Below, one piece after another: positions 1-6,552 of a DNA stretch of 6,552 nt (positions within the stretch are counted from its first letter, which is position 1; each line of letters starts with the position of its first letter). The DNA comes from Bacteroidales bacterium (GTDB lineage Bacteria > Bacteroidota > Bacteroidia > Bacteroidales > UBA10428): contig JAFGQQ010000054.1 of the NCBI GenBank assembly GCA_016935595.1, positions 1 to 6,552 on the forward strand, in the 5' to 3' direction. Position numbers and translations under genes: made by a program. The notes under the pieces are model-generated. The model was not told the DNA's origin and did no database searches. It was given only the letters and a program-made list of their open reading frames with translations.

Positions 1-1192
1 CTTCAACCTGGACTTTCTCGTTAATCAAAGAATCGTTAATTTCAAGTACTAAATTGCTATTTATTTTATTTATAGCAGAAACATCTCCTTTTGTAAAAAA
101 CACCTGATCATGATTTTGTACTGATTTATAGAAATTTTCATACGGACCGGGAGTCCTGATATCATTATAAATAACGTAAACTAATGCAGATGGGATTAAT
201 TCTGTTATATAAACTACTTGTTTTAAAGTAGTTAAACAACAATAATTAGAGCAATATGGCAAATGATTTTTATCTCGTGATCCGGCACATTGTATAAAAA
301 GAATACTTTTAGGTTCTTTTTGATCAGACGGTTTTAAAATTTTTCTGTTGTTAACCATTTTCTCGAACTCAAGATTTGTTATTATATTGCTATGCTTATT
401 GTACCCTAAATGGTTTAAATTATTTGCATCGTAAGGTTTCCATCCCGTTGCCCATATAATTGCACCAACTTTTAAAGTATTTTCTTGCTTATCACGCAAA
501 AATTTAACAATAAATTCACCAGGTTGGCCCGAAATCTCAATTATCTCCGAAGAGGTAAAAATTTGAATATTTTTTAAATTCTCAATTTCATCAATTTTTT
601 CAATAATTATAGGATTTTGTAATTCTGTATGTGAGAATTCCGAAGGAATTTGTTTATACAGATAATTTGACCATCCGCCAATTTTTTTTTCTTTTTCAAT
701 CAAAACAATGCTATAACCTGCTTTTGAGGCCTCAATTGCAGCAGTAATGCCAGTAATTCCACCACCAACAACTAACAAATCGGAATTCAGATTTTCAGCT
801 ATAAAAGGTTTTGGAACTGATATTGTTTTAATTTTAGCAATAGCCATATTTAAAGAATCTTCTGCTAACATTTGTGTGTCTTCATTCATTGGCAAATGCA
901 ACCAGGCTATCTGCTCACGAAAGTTAACCCGCTCACAAATAATATTATTGCTAAAATTAAATTCCTTAACTTTTACCCTGGGAGAACAGGCAGCAACAAC
1001 TATTGCCTCAAAGTTTTCTTTTTCAATATCATTATTAATTTCACTTAATGCATCCTTACTACATAAAAATGAATTGCTTTTGATTTTAATATTTGGATAT
1101 TTATCTGAAATTTTATTTTTTAAAGAATCAATGTCAATACAATTTCCTATTTCACAACCCGAACAAATATATATGCCAATTTTTTTCTCCAT
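1..1192 (-). CDS. qmoB: QmoB, quinone-interacting oxidoreductase subunit B (partial, 3' end outside window)
   Basis: This reading frame is open from an ATG at 1192 to the left edge: 397 codons, roughly the first half of a protein that is usually around 750 residues. QmoB is an HdrA-like flavoprotein of the Qmo complex, which passes electrons between the membrane quinone pool and APS reductase. The N-terminus (MEKKIGIYICSGCEIGNC) and the AACSPR motif near residue 68 are typical of QmoB. A dinucleotide-binding GGGITG motif follows at about 143-148. Later come ATGWKPYDA (248-256), KPSD (287-290) and the Cys-rich QCAGSRD...LPYCSNYCC segment (301-319). The usual C-terminal ferredoxin and MvhD-like parts would lie outside the window. 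It starts 13 bp after the qmoA stop with no clear Shine-Dalgarno, so it is almost certainly co-transcribed. It is a paralogue of QmoA, sharing the ATGWKP, PSD and CAGSRD blocks, but the N-terminal block separates the two. Confidence 0.93.
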   Translation of the reverse strand, partial: MEKKIGIYICSGCEIGNCIDIDSLKNKISDKYPNIKIKSNSFLCSKDALSEINNDIEKENFEAIVVAACSPRVKVKEFNFSNNIICERVNFREQIAWLHLPMNEDTQMLAEDSLNMAIAKIKTISVPKPFIAENLNSDLLVVGGGITGITAAIEASKAGYSIVLIEKEKKIGGWSNYLYKQIPSEFSHTELQNPIIIEKIDEIENLKNIQIFTSSEIIEISGQPGEFIVKFLRDKQENTLKVGAIIWATGWKPYDANNLNHLGYNKHSNIITNLEFEKMVNNRKILKPSDQKEPKSILFIQCAGSRDKNHLPYCSNYCCLTTLKQVVYITELIPSALVYVIYNDIRTPGPYENFYKSVQNHDQVFFTKGDVSAINKINSNLVLEINDSLINEKVQVE

Positions 1193-1205
1193 AGAATTAA
1201 TCAAA

Positions 1206-2450
1206 TCATGAATTTATAATTTGAATGGCTTTTAACGTTTTCCCAGTTGCATCTTTTAAGGAGGCCGATACATCCATGGGTTTTTTTGTATTTGAAACAG
1301 CCATTATACCTTCCGGCAATTCATCTTCGAGAATAAATCCATTCTTATCAACTTTTATTTGATTTATAGATAATTTTTCTGGTACAATACCAGTAGCTAG
1401 AACAACCAAATCAAATTCATCTTTTATTTTTTGTCCTTTAAAAATATCTTCTGCTTCTACAATCAAATTCTTGTTCTCGATATTCTCTTCAATATTTCCG
1501 GCTTTTCCTTTGATTAAAAAGACTCGATCATGGTTTTTCACTTTTTCAAGAAAATCCTCATTTCTTCCACTTACCCTTAAATCAATATAAAAAATTGTTG
1601 CCTGGGCATCTTTGTCTTGTTCCACAAAATTTAATGCCTGCTTTAATGATGCTGAACAACAAACACCTGAACAATAAGGCAAATAATTTTCATCGCGCGA
1701 TCCAGCACATTGAACAAATGCAATTTTTTTTGGAGGTTTATTATCGGAAGGCCTTAATACTTTTCCCTGAGTTGGCCCATTTGGAGCCATAAGTCGTTCC
1801 ATTACAACATTTGTAATAATATTTGATAATACGCCATATTTTAAATTGATAATCTTTTCAGCAGGAAAAGGTTTCCATCCTGTAGCAAATACGATCGCTC
1901 CTGCCCGAATTACTGAAATTTCTTCCTTACATGAAAAATCAATTGCATCGTACTTGCATGCTTCTTTACATTTATTACAATTTTCTTTCTCGCAAAATTC
2001 TTCATCAATAGTATATTTAAAAGGAAAAGCCAGTTCATTCGGAAGATAAATGGCTTTCGTTTTTGATATGCCGTAATTATATTCATCATTTCGCTCAACC
2101 AGACAGACATTCACACAATCGCCGCAAGCCGTGCAATTATCATTTACATAATTAGGTTTGGTTTTTATTTTTACAAAAAAATTACCTTTTTCTCCTGTAA
2201 TTTCTTCAACTATTGAGGAAGTAATCAGTTTAATTTTTTTATTTTGTTTAATCCTTCTAAAGTTAATTTCCAAACCGCAAAACGGAGGACATAATTTCGG
2301 AAAATACTGGTTTATTTTAATTACCCTTCCACCTAAATAAGGAAGTTTCTCAACTATTATTGCCTCATAACCTGTTTCAGCAGCTTCAATTGCAGTAGTC
2401 ACTCCGCTTATTCCCCCACCTATTATAAGTATTGGCAATTTATTACTCAT
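1206..2450 (-). CDS. qmoA: QmoA, quinone-interacting oxidoreductase subunit A
   Basis: This 414-residue cytoplasmic FAD/iron-sulfur protein is of normal length for QmoA. It resembles HdrA and forms, with QmoB and a membrane subunit, the link between quinones and APS reductase. The N-terminal FAD site reads GGGISG (11-16) with PYLGGRV at 37-43, followed by the QmoA hallmark YFPKLCPPFCGLEINFRR (49-66). A ferredoxin-like insert carries two cysteine sets: C106, C109, C112, C116 and C153, C158, C161, C165. The first set ends Cys-Leu where Cys-Pro is usual, but all eight cysteines are present. ATGWKP (189-194), RPSD (233-236), QCAGSRD (247-253) and the CSGVCC cysteines (260-265) follow. The C-terminal PMDVSASLKDATGKTLKAIQ (391-410) is also typical. 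The start is chosen because homology begins at MSNKLPILI. That ATG overlaps the end of another open frame. The gap to the aprA stop is 104 bp, wider than the other joins in this operon. Confidence 0.96.
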   Translation of the reverse strand: MSNKLPILIIGGGISGVTTAIEAAETGYEAIIVEKLPYLGGRVIKINQYFPKLCPPFCGLEINFRRIKQNKKIKLITSSIVEEITGEKGNFFVKIKTKPNYVNDNCTACGDCVNVCLVERNDEYNYGISKTKAIYLPNELAFPFKYTIDEEFCEKENCNKCKEACKYDAIDFSCKEEISVIRAGAIVFATGWKPFPAEKIINLKYGVLSNIITNVVMERLMAPNGPTQGKVLRPSDNKPPKKIAFVQCAGSRDENYLPYCSGVCCSASLKQALNFVEQDKDAQATIFYIDLRVSGRNEDFLEKVKNHDRVFLIKGKAGNIEENIENKNLIVEAEDIFKGQKIKDEFDLVVLATGIVPEKLSINQIKVDKNGFILEDELPEGIMAVSNTKKPMDVSASLKDATGKTLKAIQIINS

Positions 2451-2571
2451 TTACTTGAATTATCGTTTTTATTAATTCATCAAAGCCCAAAGTAACAGCA
2501 GCTATGGCAGTTACTTCTGTTTTAATGCTATTGCTGTCGCTACAGCTAACTTTTTCAATCAACCAGATCAA
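2443..2571 (-). other. Coding-like open frame between aprA and qmoA (small ORF or gene remnant)
   Basis: The 104-bp gap between aprA and qmoA is open in one frame up to a TAA at 2443-2445, overlapping the qmoA start by 8 bases (ATGAGTAA). From the first available TTG (2569-2571) it would encode 42 residues; a second TTG at 2560-2562 gives 39. There is no ATG. The part beyond aprA reads VSCSDSNSIKTEV, then TAIAAVTLGFDELIKTIIQ, which could form a helix. In the 35 codons from GTT to GAG, 30 begin with a purine, a pattern expected of coding DNA, and the G+C content (about 34%) matches the genes rather than the more AT-rich spacers. It could be a small protein with a TTG start, the remnant of a lost gene, or an extension of AprA in the +1 frame after its TGA. 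I do not recognise a family. Confidence 0.35.
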
Positions 2572-4441
2572 TTATATCTTTCCTGACCATTTCCCATTCA
2601 CCAGTTTCAGAATTATATTTACAATTTACAAAACAACGCCACTCTTCTTCATTCAATTCAGGAAAATCAGTCCTAAAATAATATCCCGGCCACCTGGTTT
2701 CTTTTCTGAACAACATTGCATGAACATGGGCTTCTGCTTGTGCCAAACGATGTATATTTTCCCAGCACCGCATTAATTCATTCGAGTCCTCAGCAGCCAG
2801 TTTTTCGATATCTTCTTTTAAAAATTTTAATAATTCTAAAGCTTTTTTTAACATCGCTTCAGAAGTTTTAAAATTAGAGGATGGCCCTCCTGCATATTCA
2901 TCCATTATTTTTTGCATCCTGAACATAAAATCTCTAGGTTTAATAAAATTCGGATTTATGTTTGGATCATTGGCATAATCTTTATGTTCCTGATATAATA
3001 ATAAGGGTTTAAATATCTCATTTTTTAATTGTTCAGTTAATTCTTCCGAAATATCCACTAAATTATTATTTTCAATACAAAAACGAATTGCTTCTTTAGC
3101 TGCAATCCTGCCCTCGGTAAATGAACCAGAAGAAAATTTATGACTTGACGCTCCGGCTGCATCGCCGGCAGCAAACAAACCTTTAATTGTAGTCATTTGA
3201 GCATATCCCCAGAAATATTCACCAGGTGAAAGATCTTCCGGACCACTTACCCACGCACCGGAAGCACCGGAATGTGAACTTATAAAATAAGGTTCACAAG
3301 CAGAAATTTCCGATGGTTGTTCTTCAGGATTTATATTTAATGATGCCCAATGTAAAGCCTGGCTGATTGTCATATCAAGAAAATCTTCCCAGGCCTCATT
3401 TTCCAATTCTTTAAGTTTCCTTTTTTTCTCTTTCTCATCTTCAATATTGCTTACAAGATTCTTAATCGCTTCTTCAGTATGCATATAAATTGGCCCTTTG
3501 CCATCCTGTATATCAAGTAACATTAAGTAATTTCTTAAATTAGCTGGAATAGGTTTTGTTTTTCCGTATTTTCCCCATTTTTCCAATTCTGCAACACGGG
3601 TTTCCATATAATCTTCACCCAGGGCATTTCTTGCCTTTGCCTGAAACAGCAAAAACCAGGCACCTACAGGTCCGTAAGCATCTTTAAACCTTACAGGAAC
3701 AAAACGCACTTCCTGGCAGGTCATTTCGGCACCTGCCCGAATCGTAAAATAAGTGCTTGCTCCTGAATTAAAAGGCGGATACCATGACCTTCCCAACCCT
3801 TCTCCAATCGAACGTGGCTTAAATACATGAACAGCACCTCCCATGGCACATAATACTGCTTTTGCTTTAAAAATGTAAAATTTATTTTCTCTAACACTAA
3901 ATCCTGTTGCCCCAATGCATCTCCCATCCTTCACAATAGGACTTGTTATAAAAATCCTTTCGAAATATTCTCCGTTTTCACCTAATTCTTTTAAAGCATT
4001 TTTGGCTGCCTCAGCAACAATAGTTTTATATGATTCCCCATGGATCATAATTTGCCAACGACCCTCATTAACATATTTTCCTTCTTCGTCTTTCCAAATA
4101 GGTAAACCCCATTTTTCAAATAAATGAACAGAAGAATCAACGTGCCTGGCAATGTTAGCTACCAAATCATCTCGAGTAATGCCCATCAGGTCATTTTTTA
4201 CATACTTCACATAATCCTCAATTGAATTTTTATTTTCTTTTAATCCAATATACATGTTAATGGCTGAAAGCCCCATTGCTACAGCACCACTTCTGTCGAT
4301 TGCAGCTTTATCGACTAATGTTACTTTTAAATTATTTTTCTTTGCCCAATAGGCAGCTTCATAAGCTGCCCCGCAGGCCGACATTCCTCCTCCAAGAATT
4401 AAAAAATCTGTACTTATCTCAACAATTTCAAAAGAATTCAT
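2555..4441 (-). CDS. aprA: AprA, adenylylsulfate (APS) reductase alpha subunit
   Basis: AprA is the catalytic FAD subunit of dissimilatory APS reductase, converting APS and two electrons to sulfite and AMP, or the reverse. At 628 residues it is close to the family range. The N-terminal flavin site is GGGMSACGAA (17-26), then DKAAIDRSGAVAMGLSAIN (44-62); N62 falls where the family has an active-site Asn. GRSWY (217-221) supplies the conserved Trp (W220), thought to sit on the electron path from AprB. VPVRFKDAYGPVGAWFLLF (248-266) contains the catalytic-site Arg (R251). SSHSGASGAWVSGPEDL (388-404) contains the active-site His (H390). AAGDAAG (424-430) is the second flavin-contacting stretch. 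All these residues are intact, which argues for an active enzyme. The gene follows aprB by 21 bp. It stops with TGA at 2555-2557, and an unusual coding-like frame continues immediately after. The name rests on motif recall; the fumarate-reductase-type alternatives lack the AprA-specific HSGASGAW block. Confidence 0.97.
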   Translation of the reverse strand: MNSFEIVEISTDFLILGGGMSACGAAYEAAYWAKKNNLKVTLVDKAAIDRSGAVAMGLSAINMYIGLKENKNSIEDYVKYVKNDLMGITRDDLVANIARHVDSSVHLFEKWGLPIWKDEEGKYVNEGRWQIMIHGESYKTIVAEAAKNALKELGENGEYFERIFITSPIVKDGRCIGATGFSVRENKFYIFKAKAVLCAMGGAVHVFKPRSIGEGLGRSWYPPFNSGASTYFTIRAGAEMTCQEVRFVPVRFKDAYGPVGAWFLLFQAKARNALGEDYMETRVAELEKWGKYGKTKPIPANLRNYLMLLDIQDGKGPIYMHTEEAIKNLVSNIEDEKEKKRKLKELENEAWEDFLDMTISQALHWASLNINPEEQPSEISACEPYFISSHSGASGAWVSGPEDLSPGEYFWGYAQMTTIKGLFAAGDAAGASSHKFSSGSFTEGRIAAKEAIRFCIENNNLVDISEELTEQLKNEIFKPLLLYQEHKDYANDPNINPNFIKPRDFMFRMQKIMDEYAGGPSSNFKTSEAMLKKALELLKFLKEDIEKLAAEDSNELMRCWENIHRLAQAEAHVHAMLFRKETRWPGYYFRTDFPELNEEEWRCFVNCKYNSETGEWEMVRKDIIDLVD

Positions 4442-4462
4442 ATGCTTAACAATATCTTTAAA

Positions 4463-4909
4463 TTATTTATTTTTAATTATTTCAATTTCTTTTATCCCTA
4501 AAGAAGCAGGTTCAGTTCTTAGAAATGGACTATTTATATCATCAGAATTTGTTTCGAAACCTGCATCAGGATCAGCTGAGCCTTCGGGAGTTGTGCGGAT
4601 TGGAAAACGGAATCTCTTAATTTGTTTATTACGGAATTTCACAGACCACATAATTGAATCGGTCCCCCGTAAAGGTTGTACTACACCACCCAAAGGCATA
4701 AAATCTGTATATCCCCTAACCTCAATAGCTTGTGTGGGACATATTTTTACACAATTATAGCACTCCCAGCACATTTCGGGAGCCCGGTTATAGGCTTTAT
4801 TTTTTTCTTTATCGAGCATCATTAAATCATTCGGACAAATATACTGGCAGGCTGTACGGTCTTGAGCTTTACATCCGTCGCATTTACTATTGATAACAAA
4901 ACTAGGCAT
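4463..4909 (-). CDS. aprB: AprB, APS reductase beta (iron-sulfur) subunit
   Basis: AprB is the small electron-transfer partner of AprA, carrying two [4Fe-4S] clusters that accept electrons from Qmo and pass them to the FAD of AprA. The 148 residues contain both cluster motifs: C10, C13, C21, C25 (KCDGCKAQDRTACQYICP) and C47, C50, C53, C57 (MCWECYNCVKICP). The second includes W48, a Trp conserved beside the cluster. PLGGVVQPLRGTDSIMWSV (72-90) is the family's typical beta-sheet segment. The tail, after RTTPEGSADPDAG (106-118), is the part expected to wrap around AprA and is polar and variable. Homology begins at MPSFV, fixing the start. The gene is the first of the operon, with a Bacteroidota-type promoter a short way upstream and no Shine-Dalgarno, only A/T-rich sequence before the ATG. 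Confidence 0.97.
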   Translation of the reverse strand: MPSFVINSKCDGCKAQDRTACQYICPNDLMMLDKEKNKAYNRAPEMCWECYNCVKICPTQAIEVRGYTDFMPLGGVVQPLRGTDSIMWSVKFRNKQIKRFRFPIRTTPEGSADPDAGFETNSDDINSPFLRTEPASLGIKEIEIIKNK

Positions 4910-4941
4910 AAAAATATTATTTTATAATTAACAATGGAGTA

Positions 4942-4971
4942 CAAACATAATTAAATTCAATAAAAAACCAA
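4942..4971 (-). promoter_or_regulatory. Bacteroidota-type promoter for the aprB-aprA-qmoA-qmoB operon
   Basis: On the minus strand, TTG (4971-4969) is followed after exactly 19 bases by TATGTTTG (4949-4942). This fits the Bacteroidota primary sigma factor consensus TTG-N19-21-TAnnTTTG. Transcription would start near 4935, giving a leader of about 25 bases before the aprB ATG at 4909. The leader is very A/T-rich and lacks a Shine-Dalgarno, which is normal in this phylum. No operator-like repeat is evident around it. Confidence 0.7.
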
Positions 4972-5040
4972 TAGTTAATAAATGGAATGAGTGGATAACC
5001 TTGTAATGGAAGAAATTGCAAGGAAAATTAATAACTTAAT

Positions 5041-5274
5041 TTATTTATTTTTTATTTCCGATAAGGTCTCTTTAATTTCGTCAAATTCTTTTAGAATTGC
5101 TTTGCTTGATATAATAATTTTATAATTCATCATTATAATTTTTATTGATACTAACAATACTCCTGCCTCTAATAATAGATCATGCGTGAATCCTTTTGTA
5201 AACAAAGCGATTATAAATAAAAGAAGAGTTGCTGAAATTACTATTAAATCTGCTGCTGACAAGTATTTTTTCAT
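5041..5274 (-). CDS. Small two-helix membrane protein of unknown function
   Basis: This 77-residue protein is not one I recognise. Two hydrophobic segments are visible: about residues 8-25 (DLIVISATLLLFIIALFT) and 33-49 (LLLEAGVLLVSIKIIMM). They are separated by a short polar turn (KGFTHD). The C-terminal third (about 56-77) is charged, with hydrophobic residues spaced in a heptad-like way (L61, F64, I67, L71, I74), so it may form a short coiled coil. The start is the first ATG, giving MKKYL, a common start for a membrane protein. It lies 136 bp downstream of the kinase-like gene and 131 bp upstream of aprB, which has its own promoter, so a role in sulfur metabolism is not implied. It is too small to be the AprM-type membrane anchor of some sulfur oxidisers. 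Coding status is supported by the clean two-helix pattern, not by homology. Confidence 0.65.
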   Translation of the reverse strand: MKKYLSAADLIVISATLLLFIIALFTKGFTHDLLLEAGVLLVSIKIIMMNYKIIISSKAILKEFDEIKETLSEIKNK

Positions 5275-5410
5275 TTATTTATAATTTTATTAGTTTGTAT
5301 ATCCGATTTTTTAATTGATAGTTATATTTTTTCTCGAACATTTTTATTAAAAGAACCCTTTCTAATTCATTTTTAATATAACAAGATAACAAAAATTTAT
5401 TATCCAGCGA
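5275..5410 (-). other. Intergenic stretch, open in the kinase frame beyond its stop, containing a possible 20-residue ORF
   Basis: After the kinase-like gene's TAA the same frame stays open for 43 codons, to a TAA at 5279-5281. Inside it an ATG at 5339-5341 would begin a 20-residue basic peptide (MFEKKYNYQLKNRIYKLIKL) ending 4 bases before the ATG of the membrane-protein gene. Purine-first codons are about half (23 of 43), so there is no strong coding signal, and the composition is what AT-rich DNA produces by chance. I saw no promoter of the TAnnTTTG type and no terminator. The two flanking genes may therefore share a transcript. Confidence 0.2.
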
Positions 5411-6109
5411 TTAAATCATTCCTCTCAATTCCATAATATTAACAATTGCGTTTACTATTTCATCATCAGTAAATCTCATGCAATTAAATGTGACATCAAA
5501 CTGTGTATAATCGGTATTTTTACCATAAAACGAATTTCTGAACTTCTCCCGTTTCTTATCTGTATTAATTATATATTTTTTTGCTTCTTTCACGCTAATA
5601 TTCATTTTTTCGCATAACATCTCAGCCCTCCAAATAACAGGAGCTTCCAATTCTATATGTAAAGATTTAAGAATATCGTGTGTAATTGCCACACTACCCC
5701 TGCCAATTATAATTACATGTCCGTTAACAGCAATAGTTCGTATCACTTCTGAAATTGTTCTGCGAATTCTTCGGTCACTTTTATAATACCGGGTAGATAA
5801 AGAATTTAATATTTCATCCCAGGTACTTCTTTCTTCAAAATCAAAAACATATTGTATTTTAGAGGGTTCTAAATTTAGCTCCTTGGCTGCTTCATTTAAT
5901 ATTTCTTTGCTCACACATTTCCAGTTATAATCTTTTTTTGTTCTTTTTTTATTTAGAGTTAATGCAAGAAGTTTTGATATTCTTTTAGCCGGACAACCTG
6001 TTTCTCTCGAAATAGTAACCACAGGTCCTGGATCTTTAATAATTTTCATTTCTTCTTCAACATTTTGTTTAAAGCGCTGCTCCATGTATTTCATTAATAT
6101 ATTTTCCAT
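5411..6109 (-). CDS. Cytidylate kinase-like family protein
   Basis: This 232-residue protein looks like a member of the cytidylate-kinase-like family (Pfam PF13189 type), P-loop nucleotide kinases common in Bacteroidota and Firmicutes. After a charged N-terminal helix (1-26) comes VVTISRETGCPAKRISKLLA (30-49), which aligns with the family's ISRExGSGGxxIA nucleotide-binding segment. A mid-protein core reads GHVIIIGRGSVAITHD (130-145), followed by LHIELEAPVIWRAE (150-163), matching the family's GRG... and LHV.L.AP...R blocks. The C-terminal lid region has DKKREKFRNSFYGKN (184-198) and DVTFNCMRF (205-213), typical of the R..F...FYG...D pattern. The glycine-rich loop is altered (GCPAKR instead of GSGGR/K), so ATP binding or activity may differ. 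It is distinct from the essential Cmk, so no gene symbol is given. Substrate and role are unknown. No Shine-Dalgarno is evident. Confidence 0.75.
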   Translation of the reverse strand: MENILMKYMEQRFKQNVEEEMKIIKDPGPVVTISRETGCPAKRISKLLALTLNKKRTKKDYNWKCVSKEILNEAAKELNLEPSKIQYVFDFEERSTWDEILNSLSTRYYKSDRRIRRTISEVIRTIAVNGHVIIIGRGSVAITHDILKSLHIELEAPVIWRAEMLCEKMNISVKEAKKYIINTDKKREKFRNSFYGKNTDYTQFDVTFNCMRFTDDEIVNAIVNIMELRGMI

Positions 6110-6190
6110 GACCTTTTTAAAAGTATTATTTCAGGGAGAAATACAATTTATAATATTTAATACCCTCTTTAGCAATTTACAAAAATTTTG

Positions 6191-6233
6191 GCTTTTTTTC
6201 AAGTAAAAATGTATTTTAAAGACTTGAAAAAGC
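6191..6233. repeat. Imperfect inverted repeat in the intergenic region upstream of the kinase-like gene
   Basis: The left arm GCTTTTTTTCAAGT (6191-6204) pairs with the right arm ACTTGAAAAAGC (6222-6233) with two extra T bases. The inner ten pairs are perfect, and the loop is 17 bases that itself contains AAAAT-GT-ATTTT. It sits about 66 bp past the stop of the response-regulator remnant and about 80 bp before the kinase-like start. No U-run follows it on the minus strand, so it is not a standard intrinsic terminator in that direction. It could be a transcript-end stem, a protein-binding palindrome, or chance in AT-rich DNA. Confidence 0.45.
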
Positions 6234-6298
6234 ATAAAATAGTTAAAAATGAAATAGAGAATTTTATTGAAGAATTTTCGCAATTTTATTAAATAAAA

Positions 6299-6472
6299 TC
6301 AAAGGCAAAATTTAAATCCAAAACCATGGATAGTATCAATTTTTATATTCAGATCATCTTTAAAATATTTTCTAATTCGTGATATAAAAACATCCAAACT
6401 GCGTCCCATAAAATAATCATCATCTCCCCATAATGCAATTAAAATATCCTCTCTTTTTATTAAAGTATTTGG
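6299..6472 (-). pseudogene. Truncated OmpR-family response regulator (DNA-binding C-terminus only)
   Basis: Fifty-seven codons, ending in TGA at 6299-6301, encode the C-terminal part of an OmpR/PhoB winged-helix domain: NTLIKREDIL, then ALWGDDDYFMGRSLDVFISR, RKYFKDD and the wing hairpin KIDTIHGFGFKF. The GRSLDVFISRIRK stretch is the recognition helix. This sequence type is characteristic of Bacteroidota response regulators, normally about 230 residues with an N-terminal receiver domain. Here homology stops at about 6470, and an in-frame TGA (6473-6475) lies just one codon beyond. No receiver-domain sequence appears in any frame through to 6552. The fragment has no start codon of its own and is most likely dead. 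A 5' portion could survive elsewhere if an element was inserted. Confidence 0.8.
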
Positions 6473-6499
6473 TCATGGGTTAAATTGACTGAAAATGTG

Positions 6500-6507
6500 T
6501 ATATTTG
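6500..6507 (+). promoter_or_regulatory. Possible Bacteroidota -7 element for the plus-strand gene at the right edge
   Basis: TATATTTG matches the TAnnTTTG -7 consensus and lies 14 bases before the ATG at 6522. A convincing -33 TTG at 19-21 bases upstream is missing: the nearest TTG (6485-6487) is 12 bases away, and TTTG at 6468-6471 is 28 away. It is flanked by TTGAC (6485-6489) and GTCAA (6507-6511), a 5-bp inverted repeat. Confidence 0.35.
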
Positions 6508-6521
6508 TCAAAAACACAACA

Positions 6522-6552
6522 ATGAAACACTACAATTTTATTATCTGTCCGC
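6522..6552 (+). CDS. Start of an unidentified plus-strand gene (partial, 5' end only)
   Basis: An ATG at 6522 opens a frame reading MKHYNFIICP to the window edge, only ten codons. It is preceded by a TAnnTTTG-like element and begins about 50 bp from the point where the response-regulator homology ends. That position and opposite orientation are what an inserted element's transposase gene would show, but ten residues are too few to assign any family. An ordinary gene brought in by rearrangement, or a chance open frame, would look the same. Confidence 0.35.
   Translation, partial: MKHYNFIICP

Follow-up and report, generated by a model that had tools for sequence, protein, structure and literature searches.

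An aprBA-qmoABC operon in Bacteroidales whose relatives carry no detected Sat or siroheme sulfite reductase

The stretch of DNA analyzed here (the window) comprises 6,552 nucleotides, positions 1 to 6,552 of Bacteroidales bacterium contig JAFGQQ010000054.1 (assembly GCA_016935595.1), and holds the first four genes of a Bacteroidales aprBA-qmoABC operon, with qmoC expected beyond the window. The genes listed in Table 1 were all read from the minus strand, on which they follow in the order kinase-like gene, 77-amino-acid (aa) frame, aprB, aprA, qmoA and qmoB; 21 bases separate aprB from aprA and 104 bases separate aprA from qmoA. The intact aprB-aprA-qmoA-qmoB order of the original prediction was confirmed by open frames, by curated-model scores and by conserved residues.

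Table 1. Genes and other features of the window, with the operon genes first.
Feature	Position	Strand	Remarks
aprB, adenylylsulfate (APS) reductase beta subunit	4909-4463	-	148 aa; matches TIGR02060, PF12139 and 1jnr_B; two 4Fe-4S clusters expected
aprA, APS reductase alpha subunit (flavin adenine dinucleotide, FAD)	4441-2555	-	628 aa; matches TIGR02061 and 1jnr_A
qmoA, HdrA-like flavoprotein of the quinone-interacting complex	2450-1206	-	414 aa; HdrA-type models
qmoB, 5' part	1204-2, continues past the window end	-	401 codons; HdrA-type models
Cytidylate-kinase-like flanking gene	6109-5411	-	PF13189, 98.8 bits
Frame with hydrophobic stretches	5274-5041, between the kinase-like gene and aprB	-	77 aa
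Possible Bacteroidota-type -7 promoter element	4949-4942, 33 bases upstream of aprB	-	exact TANNTTTG match
OmpR-type response-regulator remnant	6451-6299	-	48 aa match the end of Trans_reg_C (PF00486), E 1.4e-08

AprA and AprB scored above the curated NCBIfam cut-offs of TIGR02061 (908.8 bits; cut-off 641.75) and TIGR02060 (199.6 bits; cut-off 135.65), respectively, and the top solved-structure matches were adenylylsulfate reductases (1jnr, 2fja and 3gyx; AprA matched 1jnr_A with an E value of 1.1e-244, and AprB matched 1jnr_B). Eight AprB cysteines, the cluster ligands, were unchanged in 87 of 87 rows. In AprA, residues N74, Y95, W234, R265 and H398 (A. fulgidus numbering) were identical in 95 of 95 rows and E141 in 94 of 95; we take these six residues to be the APS contacts. 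The key motifs and cofactor cysteines are thus in place, as had been claimed. By its model scores, cluster cysteines and presumed APS-binding residues, the AprBA of the window is a dissimilatory APS reductase, with catalysis predicted. QmoA and QmoB matched HdrA-type NCBIfam models with scores under the cut-off, and no Qmo-specific model was matched by either in the NCBIfam search. The names qmoA and qmoB were given because of the gene order and the identity to genes of related loci (40-65% for QmoA over 70 loci, with at least 331 aa aligned; 34-55% for QmoB over 62 loci, with at least 330 aa aligned).

Relatives of AprA were taken from a scan of a species-genome collection, as the best 80 of 274 confirmed. 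Twenty-eight of these best 80 (L001-L027 and L029; ranks 1-27 and 29) carry Bacteroidota-type titles (Bacteroidota, Bacteroidetes, Bacteroidales, Bacteroides, Lentimicrobiaceae and, once, Chlorobiota) and share 73-77% AprA identity with the window; the other 52, at 66-72%, are from Zixibacteria, Bacillota, Deltaproteobacteria-titled genomes, Acidobacteria, Kapabacteria and others. A second set, the order sample, consisted of 393 genomes of the same order as L001, presumably Bacteroidales. AprA was present in 26 of them (24 above the cut-off plus G107 and G332, in which AprA is in pieces), 15 being new beyond the named set. The AprA of the operon, which the original prediction had proposed to seek in related genomes, was thus found in 43 Bacteroidota genomes (28 named and 15 from the order sample), on 44 fragments.

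Trees were built by a quick procedure without bootstrap, with support expressed as the Shimodaira-Hasegawa-like approximate likelihood ratio test (SH-aLRT), for AprA (95 rows, drawn from matches of at least 85% of the length and excluding L181-L183), QmoA (70 rows) and AprB (87 rows). In the AprA tree, the window, 39 Bacteroidota rows (order-sample rows included, these being 13 minus unplaced fragments) and five further proteins formed one group with 99% SH-aLRT support, and the Kapabacteria AprA proteins (L048 and L049) fell outside it. The Bacteroidota groups of the QmoA and AprB trees held 35 rows (97%) and 36 rows (96%). No single-copy marker was present on the window; the flanking kinase-like protein had 11 organism-named relatives among the 120 matches listed, all of them Bacteroidota. 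The three trees and the flank relatives agree on the Bacteroidota host proposed in the original prediction. Its view that any transfer was not very recent agrees with the trees: the single Bacteroidota groups of AprA, AprB and QmoA are more in keeping with an old acquisition than with a recent one, the transfer itself being putative.

The same observations bear on whether the operon and its flank form an assembly chimera, or whether the operon entered Bacteroidota bins as a contaminant from another phylum. The titles of all 28 named Bacteroidota genomes mark them as metagenome-assembled genomes (MAGs), which leaves room for such errors. Against them, AprA, AprB and QmoA each form Bacteroidota groups, and the operon of L001 lies on a contig of 214,810 bases, next to a fucosidase with a weak, below-cut-off match to a Bacteroidota-typical secretion tail. 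Moreover, an AprA relative at 95% identity (P0001) and a kinase-like relative at 90% (P0121) both come from a 5265-base NCBI contig, apparently one and the same, so that the join between operon and flank is probably present in an independent assembly. An artifact of either kind is extremely improbable.

Two further pointers to the phylum were less informative. The element TANNTTTG, presumably the Bacteroidota-type -7 consensus, was counted 7 times in the window versus 10.9 expected by chance; although one copy precedes aprB, the promoter argument weighs little since the element is not above chance, and it was rejected as phylum evidence. Of the response-regulator signature, the match to an OmpR-type C-terminal domain stood, with the reservation that it is just a 50-aa remnant, truncated or decayed because stop codons lie upstream in the same frame. 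The GC content was 0.27-0.39 in the operon versus 0.23-0.32 in the flank. No tandem repeats were found in the window, and Pfam and NCBIfam searches with the 77-aa frame gave zero matches.

Beyond the genes seen in the window, full-length QmoB is mostly 703-717 aa long in the Bacteroidota loci, and qmoC was found in 25 of the 44 fragments (the L001 copy scored above the NF038018 cut-off). Seventeen of the remaining 19 fragments end too early; L020 and L168 do not. These two carry aprA-qmoA-qmoB and no qmoC match in the approximately 4-6.6 kb after qmoB, so that qmoC may have been lost or moved. Small frames were inserted into several operons. One family (122-134 aa) occupies the aprB/aprA gap in L005 (9546-9914), L016 and L017 and the qmoB/qmoC gap in L009 (15717-16121), and its L005 and L009 copies match 23S_rRNA_IVP (PF05635) above the cut-off. 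A second family, found in L015 (7390-7692), L017 and L025, is inserted at aprA/qmoA or qmoA/qmoB, and its L015 copy matches PDDEXK_3 (PF13366) above the cut-off.

The other steps of sulfate reduction were sought in the same genomes, with five AprA-bearing genomes as controls (L028, Deltaproteobacteria-titled; L030, Zixibacteria; L035, Desulfosporosinus; L049, Kapabacteria; L071, Desulfotruncus). Sat (TIGR00339) and the siroheme reductase domain (PF01077) were each detected in 5 of 5 controls and in none of the 28 named and 15 order-sample Bacteroidota AprA genomes. DsrA was likewise found in 5 of 5 controls and in 0 of the 28 named genomes, the 15 others being outside the DsrA search. In the order sample, a siroheme reductase was present in 26 of 393 genomes, and none of these 26 carries AprA. 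The completeness of the MAGs was not given, and contigs shorter than 3,000 bases were outside the named-genome set; that incompleteness removed both Sat and the siroheme domain from all 43 genomes is nevertheless not credible. These absences were seen in relatives, and would extend to the organism of the window.

Canonical dissimilatory sulfate reduction would then require that sat and dsr were missed in the relatives or are confined to the species of the window. The operon itself would suit that role: the sulfate-reducer aprBA-qmoABC (Desulfobacterota, Bacillota and Kapabacteria) is made of the same families, in the same aprB-aprA and qmoA-qmoB order, with the same catalytic and cluster residues. 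The Zodletone study (PMC9040765), in its available part, also counts Bacteroidota among genomes capable of sulfate reduction, with the members unspecified, and L022 bears the title Zod_Metabat.768. Unlike sulfate reducers, however, all 43 relatives, L022 included, were without detected Sat and PF01077, and CysD and CysH were found in most of the 28 named genomes. On this evidence, drawn from relatives only, canonical sulfate reduction is very unlikely; the role implied by the original prediction fails in the relatives, and the operon probably serves another task, such as making or removing sulfite.

The statement that the phylum is not classically known for dissimilatory APS reductase needs a qualifier. 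A FEMS 2023 review (PMC10591310) places Chlorobia and Kapabacteria in Bacteroidota and, in the part available, describes both as carriers of the Dsr pathway; the Kapabacteria AprA is, as noted above, outside the group of the window. That review begins from dsrAB-carrying genomes and names Chlorobia and Kapabacteria for Bacteroidota, so that genomes with AprA alone would not show in it.

Genes of the assimilatory route were sought with PF01507, the matches being split into CysD and CysH types by frame length and span. CysD-type frames were found in 22 and CysH-type frames in 24 of the 28 named genomes; the controls gave one weak match alone (G032, E 3.8e-4). CysD and CysN adjoin in G001 and G002, above the TIGR02039 and TIGR02034 cut-offs, and the CysN of G002 is fused to APS kinase. 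The CysH proteins of G001, G002, G009 and G012 exceeded the TIGR02055 cut-off, which marks them as thioredoxin-dependent APS reductases. In the order sample (CysH scored at E <1e-60 in 211 of 393 genomes; the curated cut-off gives 208), CysH was present in 24 of 26 AprA genomes versus 187 of the 367 others (Fisher p 2e-5). The gene is also often close to the operon: 14 of the 44 Bacteroidota fragments have cysH at most 5.2 kb from the apr cluster, whereas 0 of the 52 other loci have it nearby. Its place is upstream of the cluster (at 0.2-2.9 kb when both share a strand, at 1.9-4.3 kb when they do not) or downstream of qmoC, at about 5 kb. Fragments without cysH are often short, yet it was also missing from several in which the upstream flank spans 8-9 kb. 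Besides cysH, no family outside the operon was seen in more than 8 of the 28 named loci, with just a few annotated, and other conserved neighbours were not retained.

CysH without a detected siroheme reductase occurred in 187 of the 393 order-sample genomes (CysH in 211, siroheme reductases in 26). Reduction of APS to sulfite without a detected step from sulfite to sulfide is therefore common in this order, and AprBA-Qmo sits on that background. The likeness to the assimilatory CysDN-CysH route lies in CysD and CysH, present in most of the 28 genomes, and in the frequent nearness of cysH to the operon; unlike CysH, AprBA-QmoABC is an unrelated, quinone-linked system for the same APS/sulfite step, and no CysI-type domain follows it in the relatives (PF01077 in 0 of 43).

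From these gene contents we lean, at something close to an even call, to a Sat- and Dsr-independent, menaquinone-linked APS/sulfite unit that would most likely make sulfite for sulfonates. From their family membership, AprBA would interconvert APS with sulfite and AMP, and QmoABC would tie AprBA to the menaquinone pool. Sulfate would be activated by CysDN instead of Sat, and APS would be reduced at the expense of menaquinol alongside the thioredoxin-type CysH. Sulfite appears as the end product of the path in the relatives, because no siroheme sulfite reductase was found, and presumably is so in the organism of the window. It could feed the synthesis of sulfonates, first cysteate and then sulfonolipids, with QmoABC perhaps doubling as a small electron outlet. 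The potentials of the two couples, about -60 and about -75 mV, allow either direction. Reduction is favored because the formation of APS by CysDN is driven forward by GTP and because the finishers of an oxidative path, Sat and an APAT-type enzyme, were not found. The conversion of sulfate to sulfite alone costs ATP and should not support respiratory growth, and for this reason the organisms are not called sulfate reducers here.

AprBA is reversible, and the unit may instead oxidize sulfite. In that case sulfite, released when sulfonates or thiosulfate are broken down or removed as a detoxification, would be joined with AMP to give APS, electrons would pass via QmoABC to menaquinone, and APS would go to a reversed CysDN or to APS kinase, an enzyme that does exist in the set as the CysN fusion of G002. 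Sulfite would need a sink in genomes in which no siroheme sulfite reductase was found (0 of 43), and reduction by AprBA makes CysH a duplicate. Sulfur oxidizers with rDsrAB (Chlorobia, for example) share Sat, AprAB and QmoABC according to the available text of the review (PMC10591310), and the present operon can be likened to their reverse AprBA-Qmo by gene content; unlike them, the Bacteroidota relatives were without detected Sat (0 of 43) and DsrA (0 of 28). The finishing enzymes of oxidation, Sat and the APAT-type family (PF09830), were matched in 0 of 43, the APAT test being a weak one that also gave 0 of 5 controls and, among 14 named genomes, a match in a single one. CysDN, with GTP pushing toward APS, would be a poor reverse partner. 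Sulfite oxidation is a real if somewhat unlikely possibility, and is rated that high because a second APS reductase next to CysH looks redundant if it acts reductively.

Synthesis of sulfonates offers the sulfite a destination in part of the set. Cysteate synthase (TIGR03844), which we take to make cysteate from phosphoserine and sulfite, scored above the cut-off in 17 of the 43 Bacteroidota AprA genomes and in 0 of 5 controls. In the order sample, CysH was present in 74 of 103 genomes with cysteate synthase versus 137 of 290 without (p 2e-5). The Bacteroidota cysteate and sulfonolipid pathway (cysteate synthase, CFAT and KCR), with sulfobacin B made from phosphoserine via cysteate in two Bacteroidota, has been described (PMC11211663); equivalence of the TIGR03844 matches to that pathway is putative, and the available part of that paper holds no link to AprBA-Qmo, the link being one that we propose. 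A sulfonate sink for sulfite is plausible in part of the set.

Several points weigh against sulfite production for sulfonates as the role of the unit. In a reductive scheme AprBA would seem superfluous, since CysH already converts APS to sulfite, and the direction proposed is deduced from gene content. CysH accompanies siroheme reductases too (24 of 26 such genomes) and is therefore not specific to a sulfonate route; neither CysD nor CysH was found in every genome, and the CysN scores come from just two genomes. That no genome of the order sample has both AprA and a siroheme reductase does not reach significance (p 0.24). Cysteate synthase had no match above the cut-off in 26 of the 43 AprA genomes and shows no clear enrichment among AprA carriers of the order sample (11 of 26 versus 92 of 367 others, p 0.065); it thus supports a sulfite sink and not a link to AprA. 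Finally, L020 and L168 have no qmoC match after qmoB.

A truncated AprB as a marker of disproportionation was considered and dropped, since an ISME J 2026 paper (PMC12998232), in its available part, finds such use unsupported. No description of a Bacteroidales AprBA-Qmo unaccompanied by Sat and Dsr was found in the available text of the sources consulted (PMC10591310, PMC4411801, PMC11211663, PMC9040765, PMC12998232, PMC12345210, PMC12740246, PMC8067304, PMC8470020 and PMC7883544), supplements and most subscription papers being outside the scope of the search. The enzymes are known; their combination and setting look new.

It is quite possible, if on balance doubtful, that a hallmark enzyme of sulfate respiration was recruited in one old Bacteroidales lineage as a Sat- and Dsr-free, menaquinol-driven APS reductase, its end product sulfite going into sulfonates, for instance sulfonolipids. 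The gene aprA serves as a marker for sulfur-cycling microbes. If the proposal is true, aprA in an environmental survey would by itself imply neither sulfate reduction nor sulfur oxidation, and counts of aprA from sediments and sulfidic waters might be misleading, as 26 of 393 order-sample genomes are carriers and 0 of these 26 have a detected siroheme reductase. The operon would also be an instance, open to testing, of a respiratory complex that operates alongside assimilatory CysDN and CysH, and it might provide sulfite for the sulfonolipids of Bacteroidota.

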